A stretch of DNA of 64,000 nucleotides from contig NZ_QUNO01000003.1 in NCBI RefSeq assembly GCF_003387475.1, positions 186,001-250,000 of the forward strand. Reading direction: 5' to 3'. A program made the translations under genes and the position numbers. How positions within the stretch are numbered: position 1 is the stretch's first letter; every line of letters starts with the position of its first letter. The DNA comes from Kutzneria buriramensis (GTDB lineage: Bacteria; Actinomycetota; Actinomycetes; Mycobacteriales; Pseudonocardiaceae). The notes under the pieces are model-generated. The model was not told where the DNA came from, ran no database searches, and saw only the letters and a list, made by a program, of their open reading frames with translations. This document shows positions 5,446-27,655 of the stretch, in pieces.

Positions 5446-5985
5446 TCAGCAGTCCTCATCGGGGAGGCCGGATCCTGCGCTGGCGAGTTCTTCGCGCACC
5501 ACGCGGATCGCCATGCCCTCGGCGTAGCCCTTGCGGGCGAGCACGCCGACCAGGCGGCGCAGCTTGGTGGTGTCGTCGACCCTGGCCACGGACGGCAGCT
5601 TCCGGCGCACCAGCTCGCGCGCCCGCTCCAGCTCGCTGTCCTCGCCGACGGCGGCGGCCGCCTGGGCGGCCACCGAATCGTCGACACCCTTGCGGCGCAA
5701 CTCGTTCACGAGCGCCCGCCGGGACAGGCCCTTGTGACCGTGCCGGGACGCCACCCACTCGTGGGCGAACGCCTCGTCGTCGATCAGGCCCGCCCGGTCC
5801 AGGCGGCCGAGCACCAGCTCGGCCACCTCCTCCTCGATCTCCTTGCGCGCCATGGCCTGCCGCAGCTCGGTGCGGGACCGGGCCCGCACGCTCAGCAGCC
5901 GCACACACAGATCCTGCGCCCGACGCACCTCCGGCGCGTCCCGCACCGCCGGGGTCTCACCCGACGATGCCTCTTCCCGCTCCAC
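5446..5985 (-). CDS. recX: Regulatory protein RecX
   Basis: This 179-aa RecX-family protein binds RecA filaments and limits their ATPase and strand exchange activity. It is built of helical repeats: VRLLSVRARSRTELRQAM, then DRAGLIDDEAFAHEWV, then GLSRRALVNELRRKGV, the usual RecX pattern. It starts 5 bases after the recA stop on the same strand, so it is co-transcribed and probably translationally linked, the standard actinobacterial order. The N-terminal ~20 residues are a variable acidic extension. Confidence 0.95.
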   Translation of the reverse strand: MEREEASSGETPAVRDAPEVRRAQDLCVRLLSVRARSRTELRQAMARKEIEEEVAELVLGRLDRAGLIDDEAFAHEWVASRHGHKGLSRRALVNELRRKGVDDSVAAQAAAAVGEDSELERARELVRRKLPSVARVDDTTKLRRLVGVLARKGYAEGMAIRVVREELASAGSGLPDEDC

Positions 5986-5990
5986 GACCG

Positions 5991-7031
<1,041 letters not shown>

Positions 7032-7100
7032 GGGAAGTTCACCTCTGTCTGTCTGGCTGGCCCACTCGCCCAGGGCCGCCGCCGGTTGTCGTCACCGAGG

Positions 7101-7123
7101 ACGCTACGGGGAGGGTCTGACAA
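7101..7123 (-). promoter_or_regulatory. RecA-independent DNA-damage (PafBC-type) promoter of recA
   Basis: On the minus strand the sequence reads TTGTCAGAC, then exactly eight bases, then TAGCGT. This fits the mycobacterial RecA-NDp consensus (tTGTCRGtg-N8-TAnnnT), which is activated by PafBC. The -10 hexamer lies about 70 bases before the recA start. Mycobacterial recA has the same kind of proximal promoter. Confidence 0.75.
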
Positions 7124-7152
7124 TTTCGGCGACCCGCGGATCCCCAGGCTAG

Positions 7153-7168
7153 CCGAACACCTGTTCGA
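7153..7168. promoter_or_regulatory. LexA (SOS) box upstream of recA
   Basis: The sequence CCGAAC-ACCT-GTTCGA differs at one position from the actinobacterial SOS box TCGAAC-N4-GTTCGA. It lies about 122 bases before the recA start, upstream of the damage promoter, where mycobacteria also have their LexA-controlled recA promoter. Confidence 0.85.
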
Positions 7169-7196
7169 GGGAAAACCGACACGCCGTCCGCACTTC

Positions 7197-7391
7197 TCAG
7201 CGCCGCTCGACCGGCACGTCGAACGCCTCGCACACCACCCGCCAGATCGTCCTCGTCGGCACGCCGGCCTCCAGCGCCTGGTCGACGGTCAACCCGTCCA
7301 GGTCGGAAAACACGTGGTCGCGGGCGATCGTCTCGGACCGGACCCGCCCGAACTCCTCGGCCATCAGGGCCCGGAAGGCAGTGATACGCAT
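7197..7391 (-). CDS. DUF3046 family protein
   Basis: This 64-aa protein starts MRITAFRALMAEEFG and ends DVPVERR, matching the short DUF3046 family found beside recA in actinobacteria. ATG at 7391 is chosen because a GGG-rich ribosome site (GTAGGG) lies 9 bases upstream; a TTG three codons earlier is possible. It contains the pattern GLTVDQALEAGVPTRTIWRVVCEAF. The function is unknown. It lies upstream of recA on the same strand, separated by the recA control region, so it is probably transcribed independently. Confidence 0.85.
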   Translation of the reverse strand: MRITAFRALMAEEFGRVRSETIARDHVFSDLDGLTVDQALEAGVPTRTIWRVVCEAFDVPVERR

Positions 7392-7464
7392 CGTGGTCAA
7401 CCCTACGCCGACAGCAAATTGCAGAAAGTGGGGACCGAGGGCTTCCCTGCCCCCGGAAACACGC

Positions 7465-7566
7465 TATCCTTGGGGCGGGCCCGTGATCCCCCCGACCTCA
7501 GCAGTTGGAAACTCACGGCGGAGCGCCGCAGTCGACCCCCAGGGCTGCGGCGCTCCTCTTTGTTTT
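7465..7566 (+). ncRNA. 6C-like small RNA with its own terminator
   Basis: A gene-free stretch contains a -10-like TATCCT at 7465-7470. It is followed by a hairpin (CCGTGA 7481-7486 with TCACGG 7513-7518) whose loop has a run of exactly six C (7488-7493). A second, perfect 11-bp hairpin follows (7521-7531 with 7545-7555) with five C in its loop, then CTCTTTGTTTT. Two stem-loops with C-rich loops, the second being a terminator, is the layout of the actinobacterial 6C RNA, a trans-acting sRNA that pairs with G-rich mRNA sites. The likely RNA is about 88 nt, from about 7477 to 7565. Family identity is inferred from architecture. Confidence 0.6.
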
Positions 7567-7584
7567 GCCCCGCCTTCGGCGGGG
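7567..7584. terminator. Short GC hairpin after the sRNA
   Basis: GCCCCGCC-TTC-GGCGGGGC forms an 8-bp stem with a 3-base loop directly after the T-rich end of the sRNA terminator. It may back up termination. There is no T-run after it. Confidence 0.45.
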
Positions 7585-7587
7585 CGG

Positions 7588-7718
7588 CTCGGCCCCTTCC
7601 AAGCCGATGCCTGGCCCTTGCCAGATTTTTCGAGCGCCGCATCGGCTTCCTGGTGGGGCGCGTCGGGTGGCGGCGCTCGAAAAATCTGCCAACCGGGCCA
7701 AGCATCGGCGGGGCCGAG
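7588..7718. repeat. 131-bp interrupted inverted repeat (long hairpin)
   Basis: Arms 7588-7640 and 7670-7718 are near-complementary, with a few mismatches, around a 29-base loop. Both arms share the block agatttttcgagcgccg, and the outer ends pair CTCGGCCCC with GGGGCCGAG. Part of the left arm also pairs internally (AAGCCGATGC 7601-7610 with GCATCGGCTT 7639-7648), so two alternative folds exist. No protein is encoded. It fills most of the gap between the sRNA and the cyclodeaminase gene. Confidence 0.8.
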
Positions 7719-7877
7719 CGCTCTCCGGGGGTGGGGGCGGAAGACCAGCCGTGGAAGTGCCGTGGAAGTTTGGTGCGTGGGGGCTACTGGGGGCGCGTTG
7801 GTGGCGGGTGGGGCTACCAAGTCCGCGTTCGTGGCGTTGGGGGCCGCGGAAAGTGCTGCTGGTCCTAGGCTTGATCC

Positions 7878-26320: not shown

Positions 26321-27085
26321 TCAGTGGGTGGCCAGGCGCAGCAACGCCCAGAGCGCGGCGACGGCGTCGGTGTCGCCGGTGATGCGGACGGCGCTGAACG
26401 GCGACCGCCCCCACAGCCACAGGTAGACGACCATGGGATCACCGGACACGGTGGCCTGCGCCTTCTCGGCGTCGGCCGGCGACGCCCGCCACGCGGCCTT
26501 GTTGTCGCCGTGCGACGACACGAGCCAGACGCGGTCGCCGGAGCGCACGGCGACCCTGAACTCCGCGCTGCCGGACACCCCGATCACCGACAGCCGGTGC
26601 GCGAACCACAGGGTCAGCGCCTCGTCGATGCCGTCCGCGGCAACGCCTTCGTCGACCGACAGCACCTCGACGCCGACCGCGGACTGCACGTCGATCCGGT
26701 GCATGGTCGCCTCGTGCGCCATCCGACGCCGCCAGAACCCGTACGTCCGGTCCAGCGTCCACCAGGTGTCGCACACCTCGTCGGCGGGATGCGCCGCCAA
26801 CTCATCGACCAGGTCGTGCAGCCCGCCGCGCAGGAACTCCACCAGCGCGCCGCCGGGCGGCGGCGTGCTCTCCCACCGCACCGGCCCGTTGCCGCCGCGC
26901 AGCCGCGCGGCGACCATCCGGAACACGCCGCCGACGTGCCGAATGGTGTCGGCCAGCGTGCTGGTCGGCCGGCTCGGGATGGTCAGCCCCGGTGGAGCGC
27001 CGTCGGCCGTGTCGGCCATCAGCTCTCCCTCGGCACCGAGGACTTCGAGCAACCTGTCGTGGTCGATGAGGGCCCGCCCGGTCAC
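26321..27085 (-). CDS. Maleylpyruvate isomerase-like (mycothiol-dependent type) protein
   Basis: This 254-aa protein has the DinB-like four-helix maleylpyruvate isomerase N-terminal domain: the start ALIDHDRLLEVLGAEGEL, the metal-ligand-type TIRHVGGVFRMV, and MAHEATMHRIDVQ. A C-terminal domain follows (about 165-254, FRVAVRSGDRVWLV). The family includes mycothiol-dependent enzymes. The GTG start at 27085 overlaps the HEPN gene stop (GTGA). It is the second gene of an operon whose promoter carries a perfect SOS box, so damage induction is expected. Its substrate is unknown. Confidence 0.85.
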   Translation of the reverse strand: MTGRALIDHDRLLEVLGAEGELMADTADGAPPGLTIPSRPTSTLADTIRHVGGVFRMVAARLRGGNGPVRWESTPPPGGALVEFLRGGLHDLVDELAAHPADEVCDTWWTLDRTYGFWRRRMAHEATMHRIDVQSAVGVEVLSVDEGVAADGIDEALTLWFAHRLSVIGVSGSAEFRVAVRSGDRVWLVSSHGDNKAAWRASPADAEKAQATVSGDPMVVYLWLWGRSPFSAVRITGDTDAVAALWALLRLATH

Positions 27086-27540
27086 CTCCCCGCCCCGTGC
27101 ACGGCCCGGTCGACCAGCTCCAGGAACTGGCCGGCCTGCCGGACCAGGTCGTCGGCGCTGCGCGGCGACACCAGCCGGGTGATGCCCGACTCCACGGCGT
27201 GCCGCGTGGCGGCGCAGGACTGGAAGAAGGCGGCCCACTCGGCGAGTTCGGGCGCCACCTTGGTGAGCAGCACCCAGGCGCTCATGGGCTTGGTGCGGGT
27301 CCGGTGCGGCCGCCCGCGAAGCGCGAGCACCGCGGCCGCGCCGCGCAGCGCCGCGAGGTGCGCGCGCACGTAGCGCTCGGCCGGGTCCGCCTCGTGCTCG
27401 GCCTGCAGCAGCCCCTGCCGGGCCTGCGCGAGCAGGGTCCGCGCCGAGGGCGACGCGCCGGGCGAGGGAACCGCGCGAAGTCGCGACCTGGGCGGCGTGG
27501 ACACCAGGAAGGACTCGGGAAGACGAACGGGCACAGACAT
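27082..27540 (-). CDS. SAV_6107-family HEPN domain protein, SOS-regulated
   Basis: This 152-aa helical protein matches the SAV_6107-type HEPN family: AERYVRAHLAALRGAAAVLALRG, then SAWVLLTKVAPELAEWAAFFQSCAATRHAVESG. HEPN proteins often bind or cut RNA, but the RNase motif Rx4-6H is not obvious here apart from RHAVES. The first ~35 residues are Ser/Pro rich. ATG at 27540 has GAGGAGG upstream. The promoter TTGAAC-18-TATTCT with an SOS box just downstream of the -10 shows LexA repression. The next gene is translationally coupled. Confidence 0.85.
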   Translation of the reverse strand: MSVPVRLPESFLVSTPPRSRLRAVPSPGASPSARTLLAQARQGLLQAEHEADPAERYVRAHLAALRGAAAVLALRGRPHRTRTKPMSAWVLLTKVAPELAEWAAFFQSCAATRHAVESGITRLVSPRSADDLVRQAGQFLELVDRAVHGAGR

Positions 27541-27602
27541 CAGCGGCCTCCTCGCGGCGTCGTGGCTCGACGTCTCCGCCGTGGGGAAGCCGGCGGCTCG
27601 GA

Positions 27603-27618
27603 TCGAACATCTGTTCGA
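27603..27618. promoter_or_regulatory. Perfect LexA (SOS) box of the HEPN operon
   Basis: TCGAAC-ATCT-GTTCGA matches the actinobacterial SOS consensus exactly. It covers the expected transcription start of the minus-strand promoter at 27626-27655, the classic position for LexA repression. Confidence 0.92.
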
Positions 27619-27625
27619 TAGTTCG

Positions 27626-27655
27626 AGAATAGCGCGTCGGGGGCGGCGCGTTCAA
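27626..27655 (-). promoter_or_regulatory. Promoter of the HEPN operon
   Basis: On the minus strand the -35 TTGAAC (27655-27650) and the -10 TATTCT (27631-27626) are separated by 18 bases. Both are close to the housekeeping sigma consensus, and the SOS box begins 7 bases after the -10. Confidence 0.8.

Follow-up and report, generated by a model that had tools for sequence, protein, structure and literature searches.

What does a perfect SOS box control when it stands in front of a gene for a HEPN protein and a gene for a putative thiol enzyme? The question is raised by a 64,000-nucleotide stretch of the Kutzneria buriramensis genome (contig NZ_QUNO01000003.1, positions 186,001 to 250,000; hereafter the window), in which a predicted LexA operator precedes a two-gene operon on the minus strand. 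The first gene encodes a HEPN protein of the SAV_6107 family and the second a DinB-fold member of the mycothiol-dependent maleylpyruvate isomerase (MDMPI) family. The original prediction, made from the sequence of the window, proposed that this pair forms a new arm of the SOS response and hinted that the HEPN protein is an RNase or toxin. On comparative grounds, LexA control of the operon appears close to certain. The fuller reading, which we consider quite likely, is of a LexA-repressed HEPN/MDMPI operon whose HEPN protein would be tied to the translesion machinery, whose MDMPI would be a thiol enzyme and whose leader would add a further level of control.

The box, TCGAACATCTGTTCGA, is a TCGAAC-N4-GTTCGA palindrome with no mismatches, as had been claimed. 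The window contains no second exact match; when two mismatches are tolerated, it has 7 matches against 2.36 expected. The promoter of the form TTGAAC-18-TATTCT that was predicted to drive HEPN is indeed found 5' of the box. Read on the minus strand, the box starts 7 nucleotides (nt) past the -10 element, as TCGAACAGATGTTCGA (27618-27603), and its edge coincides with the predicted transcription start. The proposed coupling of HEPN to a maleylpyruvate-isomerase-like gene also holds, with the GTG start of MDMPI (27085) overlapping the stop codon of the HEPN open reading frame (ORF). Both products are recognised by family profiles: the HEPN protein by PF18726 (curated cut-off 27.2 bits; score in Table 1), and the MDMPI protein by PF11716 (47.3 bits, cut-off 24.2, E 4.3e-12), PF07398 (39.4 bits, cut-off 29.5, E 1e-9) and TIGR03083 (53.6 bits, cut-off 50, E 3.6e-14).

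The K. buriramensis genome (11.97 Mb in 65 contigs) has 9 exact TCGAAC-N4-GTTCGA matches and, with one mismatch allowed, 92 forward matches against 42 for a reversed-pattern control. Its lexA gene (TIGR00498, 256 bits) adjoins three one-mismatch boxes, a perfect box lies 5' of imuA'-imuB (ImuA' identified by NF058630, 184 bits), and one-mismatch boxes precede each of two error-prone dnaE2 genes (NF004225; on contigs C1 and C6) and the best IMS-family (dinB-type) polymerase gene. Since the boxes of these recognised SOS genes are perfect or have one mismatch, the HEPN box is equal to them or better. Also present are a perfect box 14 nt 5' of an ORF for an AlkB-like 2OG-Fe(II) oxygenase (PF13532, E 1.2e-16; contig C16, L006 870-1516) and another about 105 nt 5' of an ORF for a MazG-type pyrophosphohydrolase (PF03819; contig C8, L004 1079-1516). 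No SOS gene was assigned to the other 5 of the 9 exact boxes.

Conservation among relatives was assessed in a sample of 150 Pseudonocardiaceae genomes, 137 of which carry HEPN, with one match per genome; in the genus, all 7 genomes do so, K. buriramensis included. Every one of the 30 best family loci, among them that of the window, has a perfect box, which in 29 cases lies no more than about 260 nt 5' of the HEPN match and in the remaining case (L037) about 1.2 kb away. When every second one of the other 107 matches was taken, 52 of these 54 loci had a perfect box and 2 a box with one mismatch within 1300 nt, and dinucleotide shuffling of the 54 regions over 100 rounds yielded no perfect box. 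Over the 84 family loci combined, the box is perfect in 82 and has one mismatch in 2. Absence of the box in close relatives, which the original prediction had named as the observation that would speak against it, did not occur. In a named set that overlaps these 84 loci (the best 80 of 366 loci, from Kutzneria, Lentzea, Saccharothrix, Actinokineospora, Amycolatopsis, Pseudonocardia and others), a perfect box was found within 500 nt in 66 and within 1000 nt in 75; the five exceptions are L065, L080, L108 (on a short contig), L115 (one mismatch) and L116. The palindrome arms are constant among relatives and the four-base spacer is variable. A TA...T element lies at most 16 nt 5' of the box in 60 of the 75 named loci with a perfect box. 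Inspection by eye also showed that eight loci of relatives, Amycolatopsis and Haloechinothrix among the named ones, carry two SOS boxes, one past the -10 element and another, near-complete, in the spacer that separates it from the -35 element. Chance as the origin of the box is ruled out by the match counts in window and genome, by conservation in the family and by the shuffles.

The DnaE2 mutasome drives damage-induced mutation in mycobacteria, and HEPN occurs beside the genes of this machinery in several other families of actinobacteria. An order-level search was positive in 158 of 200 genomes, and the 29 best loci besides that of the window were analysed. Boxes at these loci are perfect in 25 cases and have one mismatch in 2, and the 2 loci with none are both cut by contig ends. 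DnaE2 directly follows HEPN in 24 of the 29, starting 293-523 nt downstream, and the other followers are ImuA'-ImuB (2 loci) and a methyltransferase (3 loci, one of these with Pol IV). Three loci (L327, L328 and L329) have a perfect SOS box and then the order DUF6504-HEPN-ImuA'-ImuB-DnaE2, and L324 has HEPN-ImuA'-ImuB-DnaE2 under a one-mismatch box, with no DUF6504 detected. In L325 and L326, HEPN-methyltransferase-Pol IV lies under perfect boxes, and in L148, L151 and L152 the order is DUF6504-HEPN-DnaE2-methyltransferase-Pol IV, with 0, 1 and 0 box mismatches, respectively. HEPN-DnaE2, with DUF6504 ahead, also occurs in L108 and L117. This survey of gene order shows HEPN to accompany translesion polymerases widely, often with a link to SOS control. 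It is likely, judging from gene order, that HEPN acts with the translesion cassettes; we infer that it is a mutasome-associated SOS protein and that the cassette is the older arrangement.

Several observations weigh against this assignment. The count of 24 DnaE2 loci was drawn from the best-scoring of the 158 matches, and these loci are not independent events because one family (f69) dominates the set. In the K. buriramensis genome HEPN is not adjacent to imuA'-imuB, dnaE2 or dinB, the translesion genes lying elsewhere with boxes of their own, so that the mutasome role rests on other families; most Pseudonocardiaceae loci seen likewise have HEPN separate from translesion polymerases. The resemblance to the SOS mutasome cassette (imuA'-imuB, dnaE2) lies in LexA-box control and in the gene runs that include HEPN in several families, whereas the HEPN gene of the window forms a separate operon with MDMPI. 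In the family of genome G199, HEPN is present in 114 of 121 genomes, 5' of DUF3040 and then, where the stretch reaches, of MraZ and MraW. Among 39 loci of that family the best box has 0, 1, 2 or more mismatches in 16, 13, 8 and 2, respectively, so that only 16 of 39 are perfect (45 loci, best box within 1300 nt: 21, 14, 8 and 2), and two-mismatch sites can be chance. Seven genomes taken for Streptomyces from gene order have a two-mismatch site in 5 cases and none in 2, and HEPN is absent from all 6 genomes of genus g47. Eight genomes outside the class matched PF18726 at 23-31 bits (two above the cut-off) and were not used.

A further point bears on novelty. Corynebacterium glutamicum carries PF18726, and its gene cg2381 belongs to the LexA regulon (PMC5055667, citing Jochmann 2009) and is up by M 3.86 with ciprofloxacin, equal to recA (PMC5055667). 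In the same species mraZ is cg2378 (PMC5055667) and adjoins cg2380 (PMC4046766), and three genomes taken for Corynebacterium (L314-L316) have the order HEPN-DUF3040-MraZ-MraW. Because of this gene order and the cg numbering, cg2381 is probably the HEPN ortholog, an assignment made from synteny and gene numbering, not from sequence. It is SOS-induced, and by gene order it lies beside cg2380 and mraZ; it differs in being annotated, where PMC5055667 lists it, only as a conserved hypothetical protein. The claim of a new arm of the SOS response is partly right. HEPN has a gene-order tie to actinobacterial translesion cassettes, and MDMPI is a lineage-specific addition, but the HEPN ortholog is probably already in the LexA regulon as cg2381, and damage-induced DinB-superfamily genes are on record (PMC10693628). 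HEPN and DnaE2 were not found together in the literature searched, SAV_6107 and HEPN occurred together only in PMC3710099, and a wider search gave none with HEPN among the matches listed. A toxin-antitoxin survey (PMC2701414) mentions both 'LexA regulon' and 'HEPN', the word HEPN does not occur in the main text of a Streptomyces venezuelae LexA study (PMC9380542), and the composition of the DnaE2 mutasome has been termed elusive (PMC10421592).

The hint at an RNase or toxin fared less well. HEPN folds are frequently RNases, and the window protein has R56-X4-H61, which would suit an SOS-induced toxin-antitoxin or growth-arrest module with HEPN as the RNase toxin and MDMPI acting to neutralise the toxin or what it produces. 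However, the RX4-6H catalytic motif of HEPN RNases is not conserved in this family: among the 120 of 162 sequences that span positions 56-61, R56 is kept in 118, but at position 61 Tyr (86 sequences) is commoner than His (34). The partner is not constant and the distribution is not that of a patchy mobile pair, since the partner differs between families, HEPN without MDMPI and MDMPI without HEPN both occur, and HEPN is single copy in 137 of the 150 family genomes. A PADLOC scan gave no match at E<=1. The SAV_6107 family (HEPN-M) of Anantharaman 2013 (PMC3710099) is the same family as PF18726; its row there places it in actinobacteria, lists it without a conserved motif, and gives neither an operon nor a functional association. 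The state of the motif, the distribution and the PADLOC result led us to reject toxin, RNase and defence functions, and we regard the growth-arrest module as highly improbable.

MDMPI lies directly 3' of HEPN in 66 of the 80 named loci, a lineage-specific addition seen in the Pseudonocardiaceae. Of 73 MDMPI sequences, 72 have H50, 70 have E125 and 71 have H129; this set (His, Glu-x3-His) probably provides the metal ligands, as in the MDMPI structure. A phmmer search of the PDB found no MDMPI relative at E<=1, and the HEPN profile had no sequence match among solved structures at E<=10. The case for MDMPI as an SOS-induced thiol transferase, made from its family membership, is evenly balanced. 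DinB-superfamily genes are reported to be damage-induced in Bacillus subtilis and, under SiwR, in Mycobacterium smegmatis (msmeg_1357-56) (PMC10693628). These DinB/YfiT stress genes resemble MDMPI in fold and in induction by genotoxic stress, but SiwR, as described there, is a WYL-domain activator and not LexA, whereas the MDMPI of the window has an SOS box, is coupled to HEPN and belongs to a different branch.

The distribution of MDMPI raises the alternative that it is the true payload in this family, providing SOS-induced, mycothiol-dependent detoxification, and that HEPN is a passenger being lost. MDMPI is retained (E <= 1e-20) in 7 of the 13 HEPN-less family genomes, a finding that counts against the preferred reading; all 7 have the box (5 perfect, 2 with one mismatch), and in all of them the leader is matched by the covariance model described below, the weakest at 26.3 bits (E 0.0025). 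In one genome (G027, L200), the HEPN frame is reduced to N- and C-terminal remnants between leader and MDMPI, with the SOS box kept. The conserved probable metal site (70-72 of 73 sequences) and the damage induction of DinB-superfamily genes elsewhere (PMC10693628) point the same way. Against this stand the retention of HEPN in 137 of the 150 genomes and its setting in other families, where it neighbours polymerase genes under SOS boxes and the operon was not found to include MDMPI. These leave the passenger reading unlikely, and an operon in which HEPN and MDMPI both have a function is preferred.

Between the box and the start codon of HEPN lies a structured leader. Many relatives have a further hairpin between the box and a CUUCCCC hairpin; in the window only the CUUCCCC hairpin is kept, and the GGGGAAG-loop hairpin of many relatives is absent. 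Of the 75 named loci with a perfect box, 68 have GGGGAAG no more than 160 nt past it, and GGGGAAG and CUUCCCC follow each other in the expected order in 48 of the 80 named loci; a motif-pair scan gave no pair at 65 of 113 loci (32 of the 80 named and all 33 others). An alignment (A2) was made of 29 of 33 distinct leaders chosen for GGGGGAAGC and CT(T)CCCC, so that the invariance of those letters in it is by construction. In it the stem comprises 15 pairs, compensatory changes are seen in 9 of these, and the paired share of its cells is 98.9%. Counted over both helices, two-sided cells number 48, whereas 12.8 are expected from shuffles and none of 500 shuffles reached 48; slid controls gave at most 10. 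Further pair types are a less telling measure, with 39 of 500 shuffles reaching the same count. Support for helix 2 is weak: 86.2% of its cells are paired, and a single pair has a two-sided change. RNAalifold recovers the same 15-pair stem.

Such repeats might instead be DNA operators of another regulator, given that covariation is also expected of a DNA dyad and that the repeats adjoin the promoter. Yet the stem is long and varies in sequence with compensation, its distance from the box ranges from 18 to 96 nt, and the repeats fall within the predicted transcribed leader. In addition, when hairpins were chosen without regard to the loop, one of at least 9 pairs was found within 160 nt after the box in 61 of 75 loci, and the loop of the best hairpin still holds GGGGAA in 52 of those 61. 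DNA operators are on this evidence quite unlikely, and we treat the element as an RNA structure.

A covariance model of the leader matches 42 of 60 family genomes, with none of the 3 from the genus of the window matched at the threshold used; in the window itself, model R1 has a partial match (27568-27615, 25.3 bits, E 0.0015). The 43 model matches comprise 36 on the same strand, 9-527 nt 5' of HEPN, 5 in HEPN-less genomes and 2 elsewhere (one an imuA' leader). Hairpins of at least 8 pairs with a GGGGAAG loop number 62 among the 80 named loci, and 19 of 20 rearrangements of these letters give 0 to 7; the exception, GGGGGAA, overlaps the same element and so reaches 54. The pattern SOS box-N40-70-CTTCCCC occurs at 37 places in 34 of 100 family genomes, with 0 for the reversed control. 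Among 30 of those loci that were fetched, 21 have HEPN (one in the opposite direction), 7 lie before ImuA' (one in the K. buriramensis genome) and 2 before neither, the HEPN matches being partly circular because the pattern was drawn from HEPN leaders and the imuA' leader of this genome. That imuA' leader (L337 619-705), which follows a perfect SOS box, matches the HEPN leader model at 32.7 bits (E 1.2e-4) and has, by eye, a similar CUUCCCC hairpin, an element that imuA' and HEPN leaders have in common. The leader of the MazG-type ORF (L004) has a hairpin with the same GGGGAAG loop. Rfam gave no match at gathering scores in the window, nor at E<=1 in 17 leader loci, and the leader element is new. 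The mraW RNA of Rfam (RF01746) is also an actinobacterial leader RNA and may be similar in a C-rich loop, but neither of these searches matched it.

Since the ribosome-binding site is a possible pairing partner of CUUCCCC, the leader may act on translation. In the hairpin of the window, GGCUUCCCC is complementary to the Shine-Dalgarno region. The predicted duplex of CUUCCCC with this region ranges from -14.5 to -29.6 kcal/mol in 51 leaders and reaches -27.3 kcal/mol in the window, a value attained by 2 of 300 shuffles. Of 13 leaders tested, 7 are equalled in this pairing by at most 4 of 300 shuffles and the other 6 by 6 to 50 of 300. Co-evolution of the Shine-Dalgarno sequence and CUUCCCC was not significant across 19 genera or metagenome-assembled-genome groups (417 of 5000 permutations as good), which weighs against translational control, and loop-loop pairing had no support from covariation. 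Owing to the mixed shuffle controls and the non-significant co-evolution, a two-state switch is a hypothesis only. In such a switch, CUUCCCC paired to the ribosome-binding site would be the off state, and its capture by the upstream G-rich loop (GGGGAAG) the on state. That both the HEPN/MDMPI and the imuA'-imuB leaders are switches of this kind, with HEPN a mutasome component that may read them and so couple polymerase supply to damage, is rather unlikely; if true, it would constitute a second, RNA-level layer of actinobacterial SOS mutagenesis.

The features of the operon are collected in Table 1. Divergent from it lies a gene for a YbaK-like tRNA-editing protein; next come a GNAT protein and, at a greater distance, LppM. 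A MetF-like ORF, named by eye, also lies further along from the YbaK-like neighbour. Elsewhere in the window, a one-mismatch SOS box, CCGAACACCTGTTCGA, is found at 7153-7168 within an ORF (5967-7868).

Table 1. Elements of the HEPN/MDMPI operon, in window coordinates
Feature	Position	Strand	Basis
-35 element TTGAAC	27650-27655	-	sequence; similar TTGA elements in relatives by eye
-10 element TATTCT	27626-27631	-	sequence; 18 nt from -35
SOS box (predicted LexA operator) TCGAACATCTGTTCGA	27603-27618		exact consensus; at predicted transcription start
Leader hairpin CCGCC-GGCUUCCCCAC-GGCGG	27576-27596	-	partial match to covariance model R1
Shine-Dalgarno GAGGAGG	27547-27553	-	sequence
HEPN_SAV_6107 protein, 152 aa, ATG at 27540	27082-27540	-	PF18726, 131.7 bits, E 1.5e-38
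MDMPI (mycothiol-dependent maleylpyruvate-isomerase family, DinB-fold), 254 aa	26321-27085	-	PF11716, PF07398, TIGR03083

Taken together, the preferred reading is as follows. In an undamaged cell LexA would occupy the box at the transcription start, repression being suggested by conservation of the site and by the known pathway. DNA damage would lead to RecA-stimulated cleavage of LexA, upon which HEPN and MDMPI would be transcribed. The HEPN protein would most likely be a helical adaptor, not a toxin, that serves the DnaE2/ImuA'/ImuB/Pol IV machinery, and MDMPI, by analogy with its family, would most likely transfer mycothiol to electrophiles or alkylators associated with DNA damage. The structured leader, reduced in K. 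buriramensis to the CUUCCCC hairpin, probably adds translational control.

HEPN is thus a candidate component of the mutasome, located at or near the head of the cassette in several families and boxed in nearly all Pseudonocardiaceae loci examined. This suggests that a contributor to damage tolerance and mutagenesis in these bacteria has so far been missed. The MDMPI partner would tie chemical detoxification to the SOS response, and a leader common to these operons would give mutagenesis a new point of control.

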